DNA of 64,000 nucleotides. Origin: Methanobacteriota archaeon (lineage in GTDB: Archaea > Thermoplasmatota > Thermoplasmata > Thermoplasmatales > GCA-001856825). Of the stretch, positions 231 through 63,675 are shown piece by piece. Position 1 is the first letter of the stretch. Each line of letters starts with the position of its first letter. Both the position numbers and the translations under genes were made by a program. The stretch is taken from the NCBI GenBank assembly GCA_017857235.1, contig JAFMDN010000001.1, forward strand, positions 1 through 64,000, given 5' to 3'. Below the pieces are notes generated by a model. It was not told the DNA's origin, did no database searches, and saw only the letters and a program-made list of their open reading frames with translations.

Positions 231-1178
231 ATGGAGGAAACATTGTTATTAGAAACGATAAGTCAAGTGTTATTCACCCTATTAATGGCCCCATTATTCT
301 CAGGTATAATGGTAAAATTAAAGGCAAATGTTGAATCTAGAAAGGGGCCAAGTATATTTCAGCCATATTTCGATCTTATTAAGTTATTTAAAAAAGAAAT
401 TCTTATTCCATCCACCTCAGGAATTTTCTTTAAAATTGGCCCATATCTTTCATTTAGTATATATTTATTTATTTCATTCCTTATTCCGGTATTAATTCCT
501 ACTCCAGTTATATTCACAGCATCTGCAGATTTCCTTGGGGGTGCACTTCTTTTTTCCACGGCTTCCTTTATTAAGGTATTAGCAGCCTTTGACTCAGGAA
601 GCAACTACGCAAAATTAGGTGCATCTAGGATAATGTCCTTCAATTTCCTCGCTGAGGGAACTTTGATAACTGTTTTTTTCGCTGTGTCTATACTGACCGG
701 GACTAATAATCCATACACAACTATAGAATTATTAACTTCTAATCCACTTTCAGATCTTTCTCTTTTACACTTATTTTCTTTAATAGCGTTTTTCATGTTA
801 TTTTTATTTGAAACAGGTAAAATTCCTTTGGAAAGTAAGGGAGTCCAAGAATTGGGTATGATTGATTCCAGCTTGAATTTCGAATATAGTGGGAAACTGT
901 TGGCATTAAATGAGTGGGGGAGTTATATGAAACAGTATCTCCTGGGCTCTGTTCTTTTGAATGTATTTCTTTTTCCATGGGGCCTTTTCTCAGGCGTTCC
1001 ATTCTTCCTTATTGATATACCTATAATGTTTTTGAAGTGGATGATTTTAATAATCATCATAACTGTAATAGAGACAAGTTTGGCAAAATTAAGACTTTTT
1101 AGGATTATTGATTATTTGACTGTTGCTTTTACCTTCTCTGTTCTCTTCCTAATCCTAACTGAGGTGATATCTGTATGA
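231..1178 (+). CDS. HyfC/HycD/NuoH-like membrane subunit of a group 4 hydrogenase-related (Ehr-like) complex
   Basis: Multi-TM protein with NuoH-like motifs (ESRKGPSIFQPYFDLIKLFKKE; ETGKIPLESKGVQELGMIDSSLNFEYSGKLLAL); first gene of the cluster. Confidence 0.85.
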   Translation: MEETLLLETISQVLFTLLMAPLFSGIMVKLKANVESRKGPSIFQPYFDLIKLFKKEILIPSTSGIFFKIGPYLSFSIYLFISFLIPVLIPTPVIFTASADFLGGALLFSTASFIKVLAAFDSGSNYAKLGASRIMSFNFLAEGTLITVFFAVSILTGTNNPYTTIELLTSNPLSDLSLLHLFSLIAFFMLFLFETGKIPLESKGVQELGMIDSSLNFEYSGKLLALNEWGSYMKQYLLGSVLLNVFLFPWGLFSGVPFFLIDIPIMFLKWMILIIIITVIETSLAKLRLFRIIDYLTVAFTFSVLFLILTEVISV

Positions 1179-1819
1179 ATATGATTCAATCCATTATATT
1201 TTTAATTGCCAGCATGGTAGCAATTAGTGGTTTTTATATACAAGGGATAGAATTCATTATTGCAAATATTAGAGGTCAATCTATTCAATCAATACTAATT
1301 GCTGTTTTATCCTTCATAATGGGATTTTTGGAGAGATCTTTGGATCTTATAATCCTGGGAATAATGGTTGTTATACTGAGAGTTATCTTAATCAATTATT
1401 TTCTGGAAAGAACAATTCCAAAAAAGAGAAAATTCTCCGTTGAAAAATACTTGAGTGTACCTTACCTTCTTATTGTTGACCTTATTTTTATTGTTTTATC
1501 AGTTATTCTGATTTATAAATTTGTATTTTCTTCAATGATTTTACGTGAAAGTATAGCCCCTTCCAATATTCTCGTATTCCCATTGATAACATTTTTCCAA
1601 GGAATGTTCCTGATAGCCTCTAGGAAATCTACTCACACTCAAATAATTGGATACGTAGAAGAGGAAAATGCAATGATCCTTTTCGGTATATTTTTACTTC
1701 CAATTCCATTGATAATAGAAGCTAGTATTTTCCTTGATGTATTGGCATTAGTTGTGATATCATCAATAATTGTGCTTGAAAAAAGTGAGCATAATCCGGT
1801 GGAGGATTTGATAGGATGA
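1175..1819 (+). CDS. HyfE-like membrane subunit
   Basis: 214 aa multi-TM protein between HyfC- and HyfF-like genes; 4-nt ATGA overlaps at both ends. Confidence 0.7.
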   Translation: MNMIQSIIFLIASMVAISGFYIQGIEFIIANIRGQSIQSILIAVLSFIMGFLERSLDLIILGIMVVILRVILINYFLERTIPKKRKFSVEKYLSVPYLLIVDLIFIVLSVILIYKFVFSSMILRESIAPSNILVFPLITFFQGMFLIASRKSTHTQIIGYVEEENAMILFGIFLLPIPLIIEASIFLDVLALVVISSIIVLEKSEHNPVEDLIG

Positions 1820-3159
1820 TATTCAATAACACTGCCCTGCCTATATTAATTTTATTGGTACCGGCAGTTGCTTCAATTACATTCAAATGGGGAAATATAA
1901 AACTTGCCACTGCGATATCGGGCATTATAGAAATTTTCCTTTCGCTATTGCTTTATATTGACAAACCTGCTCAGGGAGTCTTTTTCATAGATAATATTTC
2001 AGTTTTATTTATTTTCATGGTTACATCTATATATTTCATCTCTTCGTTGTACTCGATAAAATATTTCAGTCAACATGATATATATATTTCTGATGATTTA
2101 TATTTTCTTTTGCTCAATTTATTTACAATTTCCATGCTATTTACCCTGGAGATTAATAACTTTGGATTGATGTGGGTCGGTATTGAATCCACTACCATTT
2201 CATCAGCATTATTAATAATCACTGAAAGGAATGAAACTTCCTTAGAGGCCGCTTGGAGGTATATAATAATAGTATCTGCCGGAGTAACATTTGCATTTAT
2301 ATCAATAATATTGATATATTATGTTACCGGAACATTGACAACATCAACGCTTATTAATTCTTCTTTTAAGTCTAAATTTTTAGTTCTTGCAGTGGCAATA
2401 TCATTAATGGGATTTGGCACAAAATCTGGAGTATTCCCTGTACATACTTGGCTACCTGATGCTCACTCCGAGGCACCTTCGCCTGTTAGTGCAATGTTTT
2501 CTGGAGTTCTTTTGCCCGTAGCATTATATGTTATCTACAGAATTTATGAGATATATCCTCTTAAGACAGTTTACGTGTGGATTGCGACGTTATCAATAGT
2601 TATGGCTGCTATATTTTTAATTTATCAGGATAAATACAAAAGGATGTTCGCCTATTCCACGATGGAAAACATGAATATAGCCCTAATTGGATTCGCTCTA
2701 GGAGGGCCTGGGATAGTAGGCGCTCTTATTCTTCTCTTATCCCATAGTTTCTCAAAGGCAGGAGCTTTCTATTCATCCGGAAACATATTAAGATTAACAA
2801 AATCAAAGAAAATAGATGATGTAAATGGATTGTATAAGAATTCCCCAATTACTGCTATAGCTCTTCTATTCTCCTCATTTGGTGCCTCCGGTACACCGCC
2901 ATTTGGTTCTTTCTTTGGTGAGATTATTATATTTTTCTCACTTTATCAACAACATTTCTTGGTTCCATTTATACTGGTTATCATATCCGTTATATCTGTT
3001 TTCATTTCAATTAATTTTAATGTTACTAAAATGACTTTTGAAAATGGAAAAAACAACTCCAAGATTGATAGAACAATGGAAATAATTGCACTAATATCGT
3101 CAATTGTCCCTCTGGCTATTGGAGGATATATTTTAATTTTGATGGGAGGGTTGGTATGA
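1816..3159 (+). CDS. HyfF/NuoN/MrpD-like antiporter-type subunit
   Basis: Motifs MWVGIESTTISSALLI, GVFPVHTWLPDAHSEAPSPVSAMFSGVLLPVALY, LLSHSFSKAGAFYSSGNI. Confidence 0.9.
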   Translation: MIFNNTALPILILLVPAVASITFKWGNIKLATAISGIIEIFLSLLLYIDKPAQGVFFIDNISVLFIFMVTSIYFISSLYSIKYFSQHDIYISDDLYFLLLNLFTISMLFTLEINNFGLMWVGIESTTISSALLIITERNETSLEAAWRYIIIVSAGVTFAFISIILIYYVTGTLTTSTLINSSFKSKFLVLAVAISLMGFGTKSGVFPVHTWLPDAHSEAPSPVSAMFSGVLLPVALYVIYRIYEIYPLKTVYVWIATLSIVMAAIFLIYQDKYKRMFAYSTMENMNIALIGFALGGPGIVGALILLLSHSFSKAGAFYSSGNILRLTKSKKIDDVNGLYKNSPITAIALLFSSFGASGTPPFGSFFGEIIIFFSLYQQHFLVPFILVIISVISVFISINFNVTKMTFENGKNNSKIDRTMEIIALISSIVPLAIGGYILILMGGLV

Positions 3160-4343
3160 GATATTACAAATTTAATGTTAGAGATGGTTATTACATAGGG
3201 GAAACCAGGCAGTTTTCAATATATGAAAAAGGGATGATAAGAAGAGATGAACCACTTGAAAGATTACAAATTATTCCAAAAATTAACGATAAAAATCATT
3301 TCAATTTTCAGTACGGACCTGCTACAGGGGGACTTATAGAATCATTGGATTTTAAAATAATTACAAATGGAGAGGCAATAAAGGGGATTGTTGTAAATCC
3401 ATATGTCAAAAGTAGAACCATGAGGTGTCTTAACAAAACAATAGATGAGTGCCTCCTTTTAGTTGAAAGAATAAATGGATATCATTCTGCAAGTCACTCA
3501 ATAGCATTTTTATCAGCGGTGGAAGATGCACTTAATATAGACATAGCAGAAGGAACATATTACGGCAGGATTGTTATTCTCGAACTTGAAAGGATTAGAA
3601 GTCATTTATTAGTTTTGAAACGCATGTGTGAGCCTGCTGGATTCGGAGTTCCCATGTATCAGCTTTCCTACATTAATGAAATAATCACCCGGATTATATC
3701 AGATATATCTGGGCACAGATACTTTTATTCAACAAATAAATTAAACAGAGTTGATGTTGATTTTGGACTCTTGTCATCATATATCCAAACATTAATTAAA
3801 ATTAAAAGGGAATTCGAAAATATATTTAACGGACTTCTAGAGTCTAAAATTTTCATTAATAGATTACAGGGAAATGGATTAATCAAAGATGATCCATTAA
3901 TTGGACCAGCAGCAAGAGCTGCAGGTTTTAAAAGAGATGCAAGGTCTAATATTTCTATATTGCCCTATAAGGAACTTAATTTTGAACCGATCATATTCAA
4001 TGAAGGAGATTCATTCGGCAGATTTTACATTAGGGGGCTGGAGATTTCTCAATCATTTGATCTTTGTATAAATGCCTTGGAAAGGGCAGAACAGAGTGAA
4101 TATAATTATAGCAATAATTTTTCAGGAGAAGGCGCGGCAAGGTTGGAGAGCCCGTCCGGGGATCTATTTTATTATGTAAATATAGATAACGGACTAATAA
4201 AGGATATTCAGATGTCCTCACCGAGCTATCTCAACTTGAAATCATTTATAAAGTCGGCTATAAATACTATTTTCACCGATTTCCATTTCAATTTTGAAAG
4301 TTTTGGTATATGGGTATCTGAAGTGGGGGTTGAGTTTATATGA
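3156..4343 (+). CDS. HyfG/HycE/NuoD-like large-subunit homolog lacking [NiFe] ligand cysteines
   Basis: FQYGPATGGLIES, ERINGYHSASHSIAFLSAVEDAL (in place of RxCGxC..H), RIVILELERIRSHLLVL; C-terminus ends ...SFGIWVSEVGVEFI with no DPCxxC. Confidence 0.88.
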   Translation: MRYYKFNVRDGYYIGETRQFSIYEKGMIRRDEPLERLQIIPKINDKNHFNFQYGPATGGLIESLDFKIITNGEAIKGIVVNPYVKSRTMRCLNKTIDECLLLVERINGYHSASHSIAFLSAVEDALNIDIAEGTYYGRIVILELERIRSHLLVLKRMCEPAGFGVPMYQLSYINEIITRIISDISGHRYFYSTNKLNRVDVDFGLLSSYIQTLIKIKREFENIFNGLLESKIFINRLQGNGLIKDDPLIGPAARAAGFKRDARSNISILPYKELNFEPIIFNEGDSFGRFYIRGLEISQSFDLCINALERAEQSEYNYSNNFSGEGAARLESPSGDLFYYVNIDNGLIKDIQMSSPSYLNLKSFIKSAINTIFTDFHFNFESFGIWVSEVGVEFI

Positions 4344-4966
4344 GTAATCAATGGTTCATTAAAGGAGTGAAAAAGGGGATTTTAACTGAGGGATTTCCAC
4401 AATTACCTCCTGAAAAACCGCCACTTAGACCATCATTATTAATCGGATCGTCCAATTTTAAATGCCCTGTAGGAGCCCTAGATGAAAACAAATGGAATCC
4501 AGAAAAATGCATATTCTGCGATAAGTGCAGTATGGAAATGCATTTTACAGGTGATCAAAAACTTTTCAAAATAAATAGAAAAATGAACGCCTTTAAGCGG
4601 TCTCTTTATATTTATATCATAGATAGTGGAACATGCGGTGCTTGCAACGCGGAACTTTTTAATATATTTTCTCCACAGTATGATGCGAATAGATATGGCA
4701 TATTTTTAACCAATACACCTAGGAATGCTGATGTTTTAGTATTAATGGGTGTAGAAACCGAAGGTATGAAATCTGTACTAGAAGAAACCTATGAGTCCAT
4801 GCCGGAACCCAAGTGTGTAGTTAAGATGGGAACATGTGCAATAGGTGGTGCAGGAATAGGTTCTAAAATTTCATCCTTAGAGCCAGATGCACTTATTTAT
4901 GGATGCCCCCCTTCCCCGTACACAATTCTGGAAGCACTCATTGAATTAAAAGGTGATAAGCCATGA
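4340..4966 (+). CDS. Fused ferredoxin-like (HyfH-type) plus HyfI/NuoB-like small subunit
   Basis: N-terminal KCPVGAL...KCIFCDKCSMEMHF; C-terminal GTCGACNAELF...MGTCAIGGAG...YGCPPSP typical of NuoB/HyfI. Confidence 0.85.
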   Translation: MSNQWFIKGVKKGILTEGFPQLPPEKPPLRPSLLIGSSNFKCPVGALDENKWNPEKCIFCDKCSMEMHFTGDQKLFKINRKMNAFKRSLYIYIIDSGTCGACNAELFNIFSPQYDANRYGIFLTNTPRNADVLVLMGVETEGMKSVLEETYESMPEPKCVVKMGTCAIGGAGIGSKISSLEPDALIYGCPPSPYTILEALIELKGDKP

Positions 4967-6726
4967 TGGATTTTATAATTCCGATCTTATATCTTTTAGC
5001 TTCTGTAATAGGGATTGTTAGTAGAAAATTTTCTTATATTATGATTATACTATCTTCAGTATATTTTATATTTGTCGGTTTTAATTTTACTGTCTTAACC
5101 TCATATTTTATTCTTATCTCTTCTTTAGTTTGGATAGTTGTTGGCCTATACTCATTAAGTTACGGTAACAGTTATGGTAAATGGCTTCATATTTTAATTT
5201 CGATAGATGTTTTTGGAATGTCTCTTATACTGCTATCAACAAATTATTTGTGGCTCATAACTGGATGGGAGATCATGTCAATATCTTCTTATCTGATCAT
5301 AGGCATAAATAAAATGATATATAGGCCTGCATTCGTTTTTATGGTATTCAGTGAATTTAGCACTGTTTCAATCATAATTTCGGCCATTTTAACTTTTTCA
5401 ATTTCTGGATCTTTTGCGATAGAAAGCCCGGTGTCTCCTTTAATATATTTATTGGTATCATTAGGAGCATTTCTTAAAATGGGAATGTTCCCATTCATGA
5501 TTGCAGAATGGCTTCCGATAGCTCATGGGAGTGCACCCGCTAATGCATCGGGGATTTTTAGTGCTACTATGACCTTAATGGGTGTATTTTTAATTTATAA
5601 AATGACTTTATTCTTGAGATATGATATTTATCTCCAATATATAGGATTATTTTTCCTAATAACAGGTGTGATCACACTTTTTTTCGGGTCCATTTATGCT
5701 TATATTTCAGAAAATACGAAAATGTTGGCCGGGTTCAGCACAATTGAAAATCAAGGTGCCATATTGATGGCTTTTGGATTGTACCTTATTTCTTCCAATT
5801 TGCTAATTAAAGATTTTATTTTAAATGTGATAATAATTTATTCCCTCGCCCACAGTTTAGGAAAAACTGGTCTTTTTCTGGCCATTGGAACTTCCGGCAC
5901 GGAAGAATTTGCAACCTTAAAATATAATAATGGTAAAACATATAATTTAGGTTTATTGCTAATTACTTTATCATTATCTGGGTTATTTCCAACTATCGGA
6001 GGACTAGCGACCTGGATGTTACTAGAATCATTCTTTATGCAGGCATATTTAGGTGGCTATATCGGTGCAGTAGCAATAATTGCAGGTTCAATTTTAGCAA
6101 TTTCAGAGGGTATGTCATCTGGTGCTATGTTCAAAATTATTTCATTTTTCTCTAGCAAAGATAAAGAGAATGCCCACCGTAAAAGATTGGAATCAGTGGT
6201 TATATTTTCCTTAGGTTTATCACTGACATTAATATTTATAATTTCAACCCTAATTGTGCATTCCCCCTTTGTAGGTGGAGCTCCCCCTCTATTCATACCA
6301 AATGGATTTTCAATTATTTCCAGATTGAATTCTAACATATTCGGGATTTTAACTCCATTTTACATTACAGGTCTAATTCTCATAATTACATTGGTTGTTT
6401 ATGTTTCGTTCGGCAATCCTTCTGGGAGAAATGTCAGAGTATGGAACTCTGGAATTCCAATTAATGAAAGATATACTTCCTTTGCTTATTCGAACAATAT
6501 AAGGCTAATGCTAAAGAGGGTCCTCCAGAAAGGTCTTAATGAATCTCAACAGGAGCAATATTTGGTCCCCGATATATTCTGGAATAAAATGAATGAATTT
6601 GCAATTTCCCTGAGAAAATATTCCAGATCATTTTCCAGACACTTCATGAATAGTTCAATTCTATGGTATATGATTTATATGATTATTTCTTTCTTGGCCA
6701 TAGTATTGCTTGCAGCTAATATTTGA
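4963..6726 (+). CDS. HyfB/NuoL-like antiporter-type subunit
   Basis: LITGWEIMSISSYLIIG, GMFPFMIAEWLPIAHGSAPANASGIFSATMTLMGVFLIY, YSLAHSLGKTGLFLA. Confidence 0.88.
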   Translation: MMDFIIPILYLLASVIGIVSRKFSYIMIILSSVYFIFVGFNFTVLTSYFILISSLVWIVVGLYSLSYGNSYGKWLHILISIDVFGMSLILLSTNYLWLITGWEIMSISSYLIIGINKMIYRPAFVFMVFSEFSTVSIIISAILTFSISGSFAIESPVSPLIYLLVSLGAFLKMGMFPFMIAEWLPIAHGSAPANASGIFSATMTLMGVFLIYKMTLFLRYDIYLQYIGLFFLITGVITLFFGSIYAYISENTKMLAGFSTIENQGAILMAFGLYLISSNLLIKDFILNVIIIYSLAHSLGKTGLFLAIGTSGTEEFATLKYNNGKTYNLGLLLITLSLSGLFPTIGGLATWMLLESFFMQAYLGGYIGAVAIIAGSILAISEGMSSGAMFKIISFFSSKDKENAHRKRLESVVIFSLGLSLTLIFIISTLIVHSPFVGGAPPLFIPNGFSIISRLNSNIFGILTPFYITGLILIITLVVYVSFGNPSGRNVRVWNSGIPINERYTSFAYSNNIRLMLKRVLQKGLNESQQEQYLVPDIFWNKMNEFAISLRKYSRSFSRHFMNSSILWYMIYMIISFLAIVLLAANI

Positions 6727-6789: not shown

Positions 6790-7177
6790 GGAAGTAATAA
6801 ATTTCGAATGTTACCGCATGGTTAAAAGCTTTCTCTTGAATTCCTGGAACTCTTCCCAGAGGATATGGGGAGTATAACCCTTAATTTTCTCAACAATGTG
6901 TTACACACCCTTCTTAATGTTTAAATCCACGATGATATTTAAATTGTCTGATATAACTTCCATCTCTAGTATATTATACCCATAATCGCTTCTTTTCAAG
7001 AATCAGTTCCTATAATCTCCCACCTAATGGAGAACAAGAATTTACTCTATAATTTGGGCAAAATATCACATGATACTGACAGCTGTATACAGAGTGGTCT
7101 TCATTATAGTATTTCATCTCTTTGTTAGCTATCTCTATCTTCCTAAAACATCGTACCATCATAGATAATATATCTTT
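6790..7177 (-). pseudogene. tnpA: Decayed IS200/IS605-family TnpA (Y1 transposase) remnant
   Basis: Minus-strand translation gives MKYYNEDHSVYSCQYHVIFCPNYR (from about 7117) and, after a gap, IIVDLNIKKGV*HIVEKIKGYTPHILWEEFQEFKRKLLTMR*; in-frame stops and missing centre including the catalytic region. Confidence 0.75.
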
Positions 7178-7280
7178 CCGCAACTCGTCTCTTCCATTAA
7201 GGACGGAGCTTTCTTCTTTATTTTTCTGTAAATCCTTAAATAATCATTTTTTATCTCTTATAGCTCTCAGGTGATTAAAT

Positions 7281-14673: not shown

Positions 14674-16053
14674 GTGCATAATCTTGATAATTATCTAAAC
14701 TATTTGAACAGGTACTCAAATTTTTCAGAAGTTTATTTTTCAGGAACATTGGCAAATGGTATAAGCTTTAAAAATGGAAGTTTAAGCCAGGTATCCAGCA
14801 GTAACAGTTCTGGATATGCATTTCGCGCTTTAGACAGATCGATCTCTTTTGGAGCCACCAATGAAGAAGAATGGTCAATCGTTAAAGAACATCTGGATAG
14901 GGTAATAGAAAATTCAAGGGTTCCTGGAAGGAATAAATTGTCAAATGAGGGAGTATTCAAAGATAAATGGGAGGTTGCTGTAAAAAGAAAGATAGAAGAT
15001 ATGGCTTTAGAAGATAAGATTTCCATTTTAAAGGATATTGATCAAATTCTGATTGAAAAGAAAATACCCATGAGGATTCTTTCTATAGCAGATATAAGGC
15101 AAAAAGAGATATTGGTGAATTCAGAAGGGACAGAGATAGAAGGAGACATTTCTAAAGTTGCGTTTTTTGGAGTCATAGGTTATTACGAGAACGGAAACTT
15201 TGAACAGAGGTTCATACAGCTAGGATTTTCGGGAGGATATGAGGCCCTTGAATATTGGGACCTCTTCAATACTATCAGCAATGAAGCTGAAGCTTTAAAA
15301 AGGTCAGTAATTGCTAAATCAATAAATCCTGGTTATTACGATCTGGTGGTTGGGCCTGAAATTTCAGGAATAGTAGCACATGAAAGCGCCGGGCATCCCA
15401 TGGAATTAGATAGAATACTCGGGAGGGAAATGTCCCAAGCCGGTGAATCGTTCATTAAGTTTCAAGATATGGGGAAACAGGTAGGAAGCCAACATGTTAA
15501 TGTTGTTGATGATCCTACTATTGAGCACAGTTATGGATACTATAAATATGACAGGGACGGCGTCAAGGCGAAGAAGAGATACTTGTATAAAAATGGACTA
15601 ATAAATGAATTTTTGAGCAACAGGGAAAGTGCTGGTAGAGTCAATCTTAAAAGCACGGCTGCCTCTAGAATATCGGAGTGGGATAAAGATCCAATTCCTA
15701 GGATGAGTACTACCTTCATAGAACCAGGAGAATACAGTTTAGAAGAGTTGATAGAGGATGTCAAACTTGGTATTTATATGAAAAGCTACAATGAATGGAA
15801 CATAGATGACATAAGATTTAACGAGAAATACGTCGGGCTTGAAGCTTATATATTAGAGAATGGGAGAATAGGAGAACAAATTAGAAGACCTACACTGGAA
15901 ACAACCACAATTAAATTCTACAGTTCTATTGATGCTGTTGGAAAGGATCTTAAATTTTTTGCCGGAACTTGCGGAAAGGGGGATCCCATGCAGGGTGTAG
16001 ATGTTTGGATGGGTGGCCCGCATGCAAGACTCAGGAATATTTATATGCGGTGA
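14674..16053 (+). CDS. tldD: TldD-like metalloprotease (GTG start)
   Basis: GPEISGIVAHESAGHPMELDRILGREMSQAGESF (HExxxH), paired with TldE/PmbA homolog. Confidence 0.93.
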   Translation: MHNLDNYLNYLNRYSNFSEVYFSGTLANGISFKNGSLSQVSSSNSSGYAFRALDRSISFGATNEEEWSIVKEHLDRVIENSRVPGRNKLSNEGVFKDKWEVAVKRKIEDMALEDKISILKDIDQILIEKKIPMRILSIADIRQKEILVNSEGTEIEGDISKVAFFGVIGYYENGNFEQRFIQLGFSGGYEALEYWDLFNTISNEAEALKRSVIAKSINPGYYDLVVGPEISGIVAHESAGHPMELDRILGREMSQAGESFIKFQDMGKQVGSQHVNVVDDPTIEHSYGYYKYDRDGVKAKKRYLYKNGLINEFLSNRESAGRVNLKSTAASRISEWDKDPIPRMSTTFIEPGEYSLEELIEDVKLGIYMKSYNEWNIDDIRFNEKYVGLEAYILENGRIGEQIRRPTLETTTIKFYSSIDAVGKDLKFFAGTCGKGDPMQGVDVWMGGPHARLRNIYMR

Positions 16054-16058
16054 TATTT

Positions 16059-17360
16059 ATGGATGCAGTAGAAGCACATGAATTTATAAAAAAATATGAT
16101 TTCGAAGAGGTAATTGTTAGAAAATTATCAACAAAAACACAGCAAGTTAAATTTTCAAACAATGAAATAGATATAACCAACAATTGGGATGAAACCGGCT
16201 TTGATATATATGTGACCAAAGGTAGAAAAATCTATAATTTCGATGTAAAGAATGAAAAAGATTTGGAAAAAAGTGTGATTAATGCGGAAAAGGCTTTAAG
16301 GCTTTTAGAAGACAATCCTGATTATTTTAAAATAAATTCTGAAAAATATCAATATAGAAGTAGGTCTAACCGAATTATTAAAATTTCAAATTTCGACATA
16401 TCTCAATTTACCAAAGATTTCCTAGAGGACAATATAAAATTCGCAAAAAGAATAGGGGGTACGATTTATAAAAAAAGTATGGAGCTTGAAGTCGTGACAA
16501 ATTACAATAATTTTAAGGATTTAAATAAATCAATAGAATTTAATGTGAGAGCATTCAATGAAAACGATATTCCTACACAGCAATCTTTTGCAACATCCCA
16601 TGATGATGATCTGGAAAATATTTACAAAGTTGGTGAAGAATTGAGGGATCACCTCAGGATGCTTGGTAAAACTGTACAGGGAAGCGAAGGAACCTATCAT
16701 GCAGTACTTCATCCATTGTTTTTTGCCTCAATAGTTTCTTATACATTGCCCATGGCTTCTGCTTATCAGGTAGATTCTGGAATATCGTTTTTTGCAGGAA
16801 GATTGAATCAGAAGATAGGTTCATCGTTGTTTACCTTGTATGATGATGCAACCGATGATAGCATGTTTGGTTCAAGGATAGCTGATGATGAAGGCGTACC
16901 TACTAAAAAGACTCCAGTAATAGAGAAAGGATTTGTGAAGAATTATCTCCATAATACAAGTACCGCTATAAAATTTAATTCTGAAAGTACAGGAAATGCT
17001 GGAATAATATCACCAACCCCCTGGCAGGTCTCGGTAGAACCAGGTACCGAAGATCCTAAGGAAATGATAGAATCCATAAGGGATGGACTTTATATTGTTA
17101 ACACATGGTACACAAGATTCCAGGACTACAGAGAAGGAATATTCTCCACTATTCCCAGAGACGGAATTTACAGGATAAAAAATGGGGAAGTAATTGAAAG
17201 TTGGACAGGAATGAGAGTTTCTGATTCTCTTATTAATATTTTCAAAGGCATAGAGGGAGTTTCTAGGGAAACCAAGAAGGTTAAATGGTGGGATGAAACA
17301 ATGTATTCAAAAGTTCCCTATGTGTACGTTAGCAAATTGAATATAACGAAAAGCAAATAA
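16059..17360 (+). CDS. pmbA: TldE/PmbA-like protein (ORF opens upstream at 15969; likely start 16059)
   Basis: PmbA-type sequence; MDAVEAHEFIKKYDFEEVIVRKLSTKTQQVKFSNNEIDITNN; ATG 5 nt after tldD stop. Confidence 0.9.
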   Translation: MDAVEAHEFIKKYDFEEVIVRKLSTKTQQVKFSNNEIDITNNWDETGFDIYVTKGRKIYNFDVKNEKDLEKSVINAEKALRLLEDNPDYFKINSEKYQYRSRSNRIIKISNFDISQFTKDFLEDNIKFAKRIGGTIYKKSMELEVVTNYNNFKDLNKSIEFNVRAFNENDIPTQQSFATSHDDDLENIYKVGEELRDHLRMLGKTVQGSEGTYHAVLHPLFFASIVSYTLPMASAYQVDSGISFFAGRLNQKIGSSLFTLYDDATDDSMFGSRIADDEGVPTKKTPVIEKGFVKNYLHNTSTAIKFNSESTGNAGIISPTPWQVSVEPGTEDPKEMIESIRDGLYIVNTWYTRFQDYREGIFSTIPRDGIYRIKNGEVIESWTGMRVSDSLINIFKGIEGVSRETKKVKWWDETMYSKVPYVYVSKLNITKSK

Positions 17361-61028: not shown

Positions 61029-62777
61029 ATGCAGATGAGAAAGGGATTTACCATGAAAGACCTAAACCTAATGGTAGCCGGGCCGCAAGGAAGTGGAATA
61101 AACTTCACTTCAGATACTTTCTCTAAGGTTATGGCTCGGCTGGGATATTATGTATTCAGCAATGCAGAGCTTTTCTCTACCATAAAAGGCGAACATTCTT
61201 ACTTTAGGGTCAGAGTTAGTGATGAGCTAATAAGGAGTTATTCCAAGAGGGTCGACATACTGATTGCATTAGATTCTAAAAGCATAATATTGCATAAAGA
61301 CGAAGTTGATAACAACGGTTTTATAATAACAGAGGAAAAGCCACTTGATTCAAGATTTATACAGGTTGAGTACAACAAGATTCTCCAAAATGTAGCTAAT
61401 AAATACAACAAGAATCTATCTGAACTAAGCGTTATGAAAAATACCATTGCCCTTGCAGTTGTTGGAAAAATTGCTTCCATACCAAAGGATGCCATACAAA
61501 AGGTGATTAGTGAAAATTTCGCAAAGAGACCAAATATTGCAGAATTGAACAATGCAGTAGTGGATGAAACATACTCCATAACAAAAATTGAAAGAAGCAT
61601 AACTTTGCCCAAGGGGAAGTCATTTGGAAAAATGTTAATAAATACAGCTGAGGCAGTAGCTATTGGTAAAATTGCCGCCGGATTGAGGTTTCAATCTTAT
61701 TACCCAATAACACCTGCGAGCGATGAATCTCAGTATCTGGAAGGGGTTATGTCCAAATACAATGTAATTGTAGAGCAAACGGAGGACGAAATAGCCGCAA
61801 TTAATATGGCTATTGCGGCTGCAAATACAGGATTAAGGGCAGCCACTAGCACATCTGGGCCTGGATTTTCATTAATGGTTGAAGCGCTTTCATATGCAGG
61901 AATGACAGAAACGCCCGTTGTAATATTCTACTACCAAAGAGCTGGCCCATCAACTGGTATGCCAACTAGACACGAACAGGGTGATTTGAAATTCGCGATA
62001 AGTGCAGGCCATGGAGAGTTTCCAAGGATAGTAATAGCACCTGGTGACCATGAAGAGGCCTTTTACGATGCATTTGAATCTTTTAACCTTGCTGAGAAAT
62101 ATCAATTGCCTGTAATAGTGATGCTTGATAAATCCATGGCAATGAGCAATTATACAATTCCAAAATTTGATACATCAAAGCTCAAAATAGATAGAGGTAA
62201 GTTAATTCTTGAGGGAGAGGTAAGCAACTATAAGAGGTATGCGTTTACAGAAGATGGCATTTCACCAAGAACAGTCCCTGGAGTTAAAAACGGAATGTTC
62301 ACCATTGCCGGAGACGAACATGAGGAAGATGGACACATCTTCAGCGAAGACCCAGATAATAGGATCAGAATGATGGATAAAAGGATGGGTAAGCTAAAGA
62401 AGGTTCTAAGTGAAATACCCACAGATATGAAATACAAGTTTTATGGAAATGGAGAGAACCTCATAATTTCATGGGGATCACCCAAAGGAGCTATACTTGA
62501 TGCAATAAGAGAGAGACCGGAATATTCATACTTACAGATCAGATTATTACATCCATTCCCGGTGGATGAAGTAAAACCCTTTGCCAAATACAAAAGGATC
62601 GTAACAGTGGAACAAAATTATTCTGGTCAGCTTGCAGACATTCTAAAAGAAGATGCTGGAATTGATGTTAATTCCAGAATAGTGAAGTTTAATGGTAGAC
62701 CCATAGCTTTTGAGGAGTTGATTGAAGGGTTAGATAGATCTAAAACTGAAAGGAGGGTGGTGTTAACTTATGCCTAA
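61029..62777 (+). CDS. korA: 2-oxoacid:ferredoxin oxidoreductase, fused gamma-alpha subunit (start possibly 61053)
   Basis: LMVAGPQGSGINFTSDTFSKVMARLGYYVF; YPITPASDESQYLEGVMSKYNVIVEQTEDEIAAINMAIAAANTGLRAATSTSGPGFSLM. Confidence 0.95.
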   Translation: MQMRKGFTMKDLNLMVAGPQGSGINFTSDTFSKVMARLGYYVFSNAELFSTIKGEHSYFRVRVSDELIRSYSKRVDILIALDSKSIILHKDEVDNNGFIITEEKPLDSRFIQVEYNKILQNVANKYNKNLSELSVMKNTIALAVVGKIASIPKDAIQKVISENFAKRPNIAELNNAVVDETYSITKIERSITLPKGKSFGKMLINTAEAVAIGKIAAGLRFQSYYPITPASDESQYLEGVMSKYNVIVEQTEDEIAAINMAIAAANTGLRAATSTSGPGFSLMVEALSYAGMTETPVVIFYYQRAGPSTGMPTRHEQGDLKFAISAGHGEFPRIVIAPGDHEEAFYDAFESFNLAEKYQLPVIVMLDKSMAMSNYTIPKFDTSKLKIDRGKLILEGEVSNYKRYAFTEDGISPRTVPGVKNGMFTIAGDEHEEDGHIFSEDPDNRIRMMDKRMGKLKKVLSEIPTDMKYKFYGNGENLIISWGSPKGAILDAIRERPEYSYLQIRLLHPFPVDEVKPFAKYKRIVTVEQNYSGQLADILKEDAGIDVNSRIVKFNGRPIAFEELIEGLDRSKTERRVVLTYA

Positions 62778-63675
62778 TACTTACAGAACAAATGTTGAAA
62801 TAGATTGGTGTCCAGGATGTGGAGATTTCGGTATACTCAACGCTCTGACACTGGCACTACAGGAATTGAAAATACCTAATGAGAAAGTAGCATTAACCGG
62901 TGGTATCGGTTGCAGTTCAAAAATTCCTCATTATGTAAATGTATATGCATACCACACATTACATGGTAGGTCTTTGGCCCAGGCACAAGCAATAAAAATT
63001 GCTAATCCTGAATTGGAAGTTATCGCAGCGGCAGGTGATGGAGATGCATTGGGTATTGGTACTCAACATTTTGTAGCTGCTGGAAGGAGAAATGTTGACC
63101 TCACCTATCTCATATTTGACAATGGAGTCTATGGTCTTACAAAAGGGCAAGCATCCCCGACACTTCCATATGGTGAAAGCCCTAAATCGTTACAGGTAGA
63201 AAATATCAAGGATCCAGTCAATCCAATTTTCCTTGCACTTGCTTCAGGGTATACATTTGTTGCAAGATCTTATTCTTACAATATAAAACATCTTAAGGAC
63301 ACCATAATTAGGGCCATTAAACACAAAGGGCTTGCCTTAGTAGATATAATGCAACCGTGCGTTACTTACAATAACATCAATACAAAGGAATATTACGATG
63401 CTAGGTTGTATGACCTGCAGAAGGAAGGGTGGGATCCTGTTGCTAAGAATGAAGATGAATATAAACAGAAATTAGGACAGGCTACTATAAAATCCCTGGA
63501 ATGGGGAGATAAAATTCCTATGGGGGTATTCATTGAATATCAGAAGGAAACCTATGATGAACGTTTATCCAGGCTTCTAATGAACTATAAATCCAAAAAT
63601 TTCGTAACATTGCCCATACACGAAAATGGAAAGCCAGTGAATGATATAACTCCTCTTATAGAGGAATTAATTTGA
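62770..63675 (+). CDS. korB: 2-oxoacid:ferredoxin oxidoreductase, beta subunit
   Basis: WCPGCGDFGILNAL; GIGCSSKIPHY; AAAGDGDALGIGTQHFVAAGRRNVDLTYLIFDNGVYGLTKGQASPT. Confidence 0.96.
   Translation: MPNTYRTNVEIDWCPGCGDFGILNALTLALQELKIPNEKVALTGGIGCSSKIPHYVNVYAYHTLHGRSLAQAQAIKIANPELEVIAAAGDGDALGIGTQHFVAAGRRNVDLTYLIFDNGVYGLTKGQASPTLPYGESPKSLQVENIKDPVNPIFLALASGYTFVARSYSYNIKHLKDTIIRAIKHKGLALVDIMQPCVTYNNINTKEYYDARLYDLQKEGWDPVAKNEDEYKQKLGQATIKSLEWGDKIPMGVFIEYQKETYDERLSRLLMNYKSKNFVTLPIHENGKPVNDITPLIEELI

Follow-up and report, generated by a model that had tools for sequence, protein, structure and literature searches.

Background

Relatives of group 4 [NiFe] hydrogenases without metal-binding motifs have been described from several lineages. 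A section of Yelton et al. 2013 reports them, devoid of both Ni-binding motifs, from acid-mine plasma genomes of the order Thermoplasmatales (PMC3750248), and a six-gene set of Ferroplasma acidiphilum (FAD_0579-0584) is listed as antiporter/hydrogenase-related in an excerpt of PMC5473848. Motif-less group 4 genes of Sulfobacillus were called "energy-converting hydrogenase-related" (Ehr)-like and given as of unknown function in the relevant passage of PMC4378227, which cites Coppi 2005 and Marreiros 2013 on Ehr complexes; such complexes also appear in sections of the literature on Nitrospira, Geobacter, ammonia-oxidising archaea and others (PMC4378227, PMC10284858, PMC10432482). Given the Thermoplasmatales, F. 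acidiphilum and Sulfobacillus reports, this kind of complex is already known. Here we describe a six-gene operon at 231-6726 of a 64,000-nucleotide stretch (hereafter the window; contig JAFMDN010000001.1 of assembly GCA_017857235.1) from an acid-loving Thermoplasmatales archaeon, whose sequence supports its assignment to the Ehr complexes rather than to the H2-evolving enzymes, as a first-pass annotation of this DNA had proposed.

Results

The six open reading frames (ORFs) lie on the forward strand in the order HyfC-E-F-G-[H+I fused]-B, and the first-pass annotation had placed and oriented all of them correctly. Every junction is a 4-base ATGA overlap (at 1175, 1816, 3156, 4340 and 4963), resembling a translationally coupled operon. 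Pfam and NCBIfam searches assigned a HyfC/NuoH-like membrane anchor (231..1178, 315 aa; PF00146, 1.1e-33), a HyfE-like membrane subunit (1175..1819, 214 aa; a weak match to NF008556, 8.9e-6, at the same gene position as in relatives), a HyfF-like antiporter-type subunit (1816..3159, 447 aa), the Ehr large subunit (HyfG/NuoD-like; 3156..4343, 395 aa; PF00346, 4e-21), a fused HyfH(NuoI)-HyfI(NuoB)-like subunit (4340..4966, 208 aa; PF01058, 1.1e-17; structure matches 7z0s_G, 1e-20, and 6cfw_J, 2e-20) and a HyfB/NuoL-like antiporter-type subunit (4963..6726, 587 aa). The HyfF and HyfB models exceeded their curated cut-offs (NF005042, "hydrogenase 4 subunit F", 583 bits against 437; NF005046, "hydrogenase 4 subunit B", 592 bits against 460). 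One operon thus holds both the membrane and the peripheral subunits of the group 4 hydrogenase/complex I type that define the Ehr class.

Among solved structures, the large subunit matched MbhL best (6cfw_L, 3e-22), followed by HycE (7z0s_E, 2e-16) and Nqo4 (2fug_4, 1e-15). It was aligned in a set of 36 sequences that included 15 close orthologues (with the window protein, group E1), 12 distant relatives (E2 and E3), three real Thermoplasmatota hydrogenases with intact NiFe motifs (L077-L079) and the NuoD of the same genome. The four NiFe-ligand cysteine positions are occupied by Asn107, His110, Trp386 and Glu389, and all of them are replaced in every aligned E1 member (16/16). The former L1 motif, ERINGYHSASH (residues 104-114; 3465..3497), aligns with ERMCGICSFSH of MbhL and PRMDYLHSFAH of Nqo4; at the second cysteine position it shares the His of Nqo4, which has Asp where Asn107 stands. 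The former L2 region (residues 374-395; 4275..4340) reads TDFHFNFESFGIWVSE..., and the C-terminus FTDFHFNFESFGIWVSE stands where SxDPCxxC would be. Both CxxC motifs of a group 4 [NiFe] hydrogenase (RxCGxC and DPCxxC) are therefore missing, as in Ehr proteins, and the first-pass reading of a Cys-to-Asn and Cys-to-His change in the first motif and of an absent second motif agrees with the alignment.

Two alternative explanations that the same annotation had raised were tested and failed. Ligand cysteines have not moved elsewhere in the protein: its own cysteines (91, 99, 158 and 304) fall at no ligand position, only C158 recurs (in 12/15 E1 orthologues), and the orthologue in genome G300 (L075) contains no cysteine. 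Nor did a frameshift or assembly error remove the L2 motif, because the C-terminal segment around ESFGIWxSE is common to the E1 large subunits and all 15 orthologues end alike.

Genome content and phylogeny point the same way. HypD is required for building the NiFe site. Among 101 genomes of the order, the Ehr large subunit (E<=1e-30) was found in 55 of families f1 and f3; the same Ehr machine is widespread in this order. HypD was above cut-off in none of these 55 and only in families f2, f4 and f47. The present genome likewise lacks the HypD expected alongside a group 4 hydrogenase; since it is 89.5% complete, single absences carry little weight and the pattern over many genomes counts. In a tree with Thermoplasmatota and E. 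coli references only, E1 formed a single clade (100/100), and the Cys-less clade as a whole stood apart from the hydrogenases and NuoD (100/99). Overall similarity to MbhL and HycE and a retained glutamate, E62, could be taken as signs of a true or degenerate hydrogenase, but with four ligands lost, one orthologue free of cysteine and no HypD in the Ehr-bearing f1 and f3 genomes that reading is hardly credible. The complex is thus almost certainly not a hydrogenase, and the loss of NiFe ligands across orthologues, the missing HypD and the phylogeny together support an Ehr complex.

The reaction chamber also departs from that of complex I. Based on the structure matches and the alignment, the complex I loop GPxHPxxHG, which carries the quinone ligand H38 of Nqo4, reads GPATGGLIE in the Ehr large subunit (residues 54-62; 3315..3341), with no His equivalent of H38, and the position of the second quinone-headgroup residue, Y87, is Gly. 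The NuoD of the same genome retains both residues, and the quinone-ligand loss is therefore specific to the Ehr protein. E62, at the end of this loop, aligns gap-free with MbhL E21 and is invariant in E1-E3; a passage of PMC7684303 calls E21 key to proton reduction in MBH and missing in MBS. An AlphaFold model of the large subunit built from a two-row alignment (mean pLDDT 43.5) was discarded.

The predicted electron wire lies in the 208-aa subunit, where a HyfH/NuoI-like domain is joined to a HyfI/NuoB-like domain. The first-pass annotation had named a HyfH/I-like protein; the fusion is present, but the NuoI-like half holds one of the two expected clusters only. Compared with HycF, motif I has lost its first three cysteines and retains its CP, and motif II has lost its last cysteine and retains CxxCxxC. 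Under the standard two-cluster ferredoxin ligation pattern, the HycF/HycG alignment predicts that the inner N6b-type [4Fe-4S] cluster is kept (C42, C57, C60 and C63; 4463..4528) and N6a lost, and this N6b-only pattern holds in E1, E2 and E3. In the NuoB-like half, the N2-type proximal-cluster ligands are all retained, as had been annotated (C99, C102, C166 and C189; 4634..4906, from the 6cfw and 7z0s matches and the alignment). Their spacing is CxxC as in MBH, not the tandem CC of complex I (PMC7684303), and the loop aligns gap-free with MbhJ.

In the membrane arm, conserved residues comprise E142, E194, E207 and E218 in the HyfC-like anchor, E90, E164, E182 and D188 in the HyfE-like subunit (also present in E. 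coli HyfE), E124, K203, K275, H310, K314 and E369 in the HyfF-like subunit and E103, K172, H297, K301 and K391 in the HyfB-like subunit. These antiporter-like Glu, Lys and His residues and HyfC/HyfE-like acids are kept across 23-24 relatives, and many are common to E. coli HyfB, HyfF, HyfC and HyfE, so the ion path looks intact and the membrane arm would pump ions. The same residues would suit a redox-independent cation/proton antiporter that keeps its peripheral arm as a scaffold; however, the motifs of both clusters persist in E1, E2 and E3 alike, which argues that electron transfer is still under selection and makes such an antiporter improbable. The annotated ion-pumping redox complex agrees with the conservation of clusters and ion-path residues, and a redox-driven ion pump is what we consider probable.

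All compared neighbourhoods but the two most distant (L071 and L072) have the gene order CEFG(HI)B, the same set of six genes is found as an operon in genome G051, and any given flanking gene is shared by at most three of the Ehr loci compared. On this gene context the module is to be read as self-contained. Downstream genes shared by three Ferroplasma-like loci (c12-c14) were considered as partners and rejected, being riboflavin biosynthesis genes. The own genome's content was probed family by family; a scan of the genome contigs found a single relative.

Formate dehydrogenase (FDH) deserved particular attention, since sections of PMC6349859 propose an FDH-Ehr pairing for Riflemargulisbacteria and Saganbacteria. 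The present genome encodes an Fdh-alpha (L101:6778-10473, contig C49; 821 bits against a cut-off of 666), after which come AsrA/ShyB-like and AsrB/ShyC-like subunits, and this cluster could serve a formate-driven FDH-Ehr supercomplex. Yet none of the Ehr operons read had an FDH within about 10 kb. At least 13 genomes with Ehr gave no FDH match, among them G095, G210 and G242 (each at least 96% complete), and FDH occurs in most of the f1 genomes without Ehr. NuoF-like genes adjoin FDH genes and not Ehr; family f1 yielded none of them, and many genomes that carry Ehr lack them. FDH as an obligatory partner and a NuoF-like partner were therefore both rejected; from these co-occurrence patterns FDH appears dispensable for Ehr, and the supercomplex is very unlikely. 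The C49 cluster resembles a soluble formate dehydrogenase linked to NAD(P).

These results bear on the annotated claim that the electron partner is unknown, which had been argued from the lack of NuoEFG, FpoF and Fdh genes in the window. That argument is weak: window base 1 is also the first base of the contig (C42), so that the context upstream of base 231 cannot be judged in this genome, and an Fdh lies elsewhere. The relatives nevertheless support the claim itself: their operons have no linked partner, FrhB/FpoF and NuoF-like matches were not found in the present genome, and FDH is dispensable.

The genome also encodes a complex I without NuoEFG (NuoA-N operon, contig C50) beside succinate dehydrogenase-like genes, COX1 and four loci of the 2-oxoacid:ferredoxin oxidoreductase (POR) family. 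In the window itself, an alpha-type POR ORF (61029-62777; POR_N and POR domains) is followed by an overlapping 301-aa ORF (62770-63675), and these are a likely source of reduced ferredoxin.

As to origin, the window large subunit groups with f3 sequences (100/95) and not with G300, the sole other f1 carrier; an Ehr match is missing in 13/14 other f1 genomes. In the same-genus genome G310 (proteins about 91% identical), the place beside L44e that the Ehr operon takes in the window is occupied by a class I tRNA synthetase gene. Between operon and L44e gene lies, on the reverse strand, a degenerate IS200/IS605-type TnpA (Y1_Tnp) remnant interrupted by stops and a change of frame (approximately 6808..7195; PF01797, 5e-7 for one fragment and 0.01 for the other), which may mark the operon's arrival. 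Together, the f3 grouping, the f1 absences, the G310 locus and the transposase remnant suggest that the operon was horizontally gained, though loss in sister genomes or misassembly near the contig end could have left the same picture.

Further Ehr-like genes were seen in the order. Two subfamilies share about 42-54% and 31-39% identity with the window (L069/L084 and L082/L083); some genomes among G338, G339, G341, G343, G346 and G351 hold two copies, G339 and G351 having one of each subfamily. A distant relative (L072:7850-10546) has an 898-aa ORF, an apparent HyfF-like and HyfG-like fusion, and L073 and L074 (genomes G034 and G230) represent another large subunit without NiFe motifs, its NuoI-like half degraded further. 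Elsewhere in the window, two copies of a short repeat, CAGTTGATAACGC, occur just before the first gene (within 1-230), and a TldD/PmbA-type metallopeptidase pair, ordinary in archaea, is found at 14674-17360.

Discussion

The anatomy described above can be accommodated in the following scheme, in which donor, acceptor, direction and pumping are our proposals. POR enzymes would reduce ferredoxin, most likely the electron source of Ehr; electrons would enter at the single N6b-type cluster, move on to the proximal cluster of MBH type and finally reduce an acceptor inside the former NiFe/quinone chamber, for which a membrane quinone bound on non-canonical residues is the likeliest candidate; the charge change would be relayed via the conserved HyfC and HyfE acids to HyfF and HyfB, which would move protons across the membrane. 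Ferredoxin is preferred as donor because the operon brings no dedicated input subunit with it and the genome encodes POR enzymes, and we regard it as somewhat better than an even bet. COX1 implies a respiratory chain, and because the organism appears to respire, quinone is preferred as acceptor, though tentatively, this being the weakest step as the canonical quinone ligands are missing. The scheme as a whole, a ferredoxin-fed proton pump, has in our view about an even chance of being right.

Several lines of evidence weigh against it: i) H38 and Y87 are absent from the Ehr large subunit although the genome's own NuoD has both; ii) no large-subunit structural model is of usable quality; iii) loss of the outer N6a-type cluster shifts the possible donor docking site; iv) with a complex I lacking NuoEFG already in the genome, a second ferredoxin:quinone pump is partly redundant.

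The pH gradient across an acidophile's membrane is large, and the same anatomy would serve a complex running in reverse, with the inward proton gradient pushing electrons uphill to ferredoxin from quinol or a different donor of mid potential. Direction is not readable from sequence and no gene context supports such operation, which we hold to be rather unlikely. Thermoplasma-type organisms respire sulfur, and an MBS-like enzyme would reduce S-S bonds of sulfur or polysulfide at the proximal cluster while pumping ions. Ehr, like MBS, lacks the H38 and Y87 ligands (PMC7684303). However, the MBS loop is three residues shorter than that of MBH and carries three cysteines, MBS has no E21 equivalent, and the Ehr operon contains no Mrp-type Na+ module. 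Because the four-Cys loop is intact and E62 present, MBS-type chemistry is disfavoured and seems unlikely. It is also conceivable, if doubtful, that the chamber reduces neither protons, polysulfide nor a canonically bound quinone, acting through the conserved Asn107, His110, Glu62, Trp386 and Glu389; in that case Ehr would form an enzyme class of its own within the complex I superfamily, acting on a substrate of its own.

Ehr complexes are widespread and stand between hydrogenases and complex I, their substrate unknown. The window Ehr is compact, with six subunits and two predicted clusters, and is conserved across much of an archaeal order. Since it retains the hydrogenase proton-relay Glu and has neither metal site nor quinone ligands, it offers a useful intermediate for studying how a change of substrate came about in the coupling machinery. 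What appears new, judging from the sequences compared, is the self-contained module, for which FDH appears dispensable, the N6b-only fused HI subunit, the invariant E21 equivalent without quinone ligands and the conserved ion-path residues; the sections of the literature on these complexes that were available hold no mention of a single-cluster fused HI, a retained E21 equivalent or the HypD and FDH co-occurrence results.

Compared with known systems, the closest is the Thermoplasmatales "putative hydrogenase 4" set (FAD_0579-0584), with the same gene order and, in the sections available, a motif-less group 4 large subunit; the Ferroplasma-like genomes are of a different family and species, their large subunits 45-50% identical to that of the window. 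Bacterial and ammonia-oxidising archaeal Ehr complexes share the group 4 architecture, the missing NiFe motifs and the lack of a known function, a likeness judged from their descriptions; the window complex differs in its fused HI with a single N6b-type cluster, of which the excerpts of their literature give no description. Mbh of Pyrococcus furiosus (6cfw) offers the best large-subunit structure match, a CxxC proximal cluster and the counterpart of E62 (MbhL E21), whereas the window Ehr lacks the NiFe ligands and the Mrp-type module and has fewer FeS clusters. MBS of P. furiosus (6u8y) likewise has no NiFe site and no quinone ligands; unlike the window Ehr, according to a passage of PMC7684303, it keeps two of the four cysteines, has a three-Cys proximal cluster and lacks E21. 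Complex I, including the genome's own NuoA-N operon, has homologous NuoB/D/H/I/L-type cores and the His at the second L1 cysteine position, whereas Ehr lacks H38 and Y87, has CxxC and not CC at N2, carries its NuoI-like domain fused and reduced, and occupies a separate branch of the tree.

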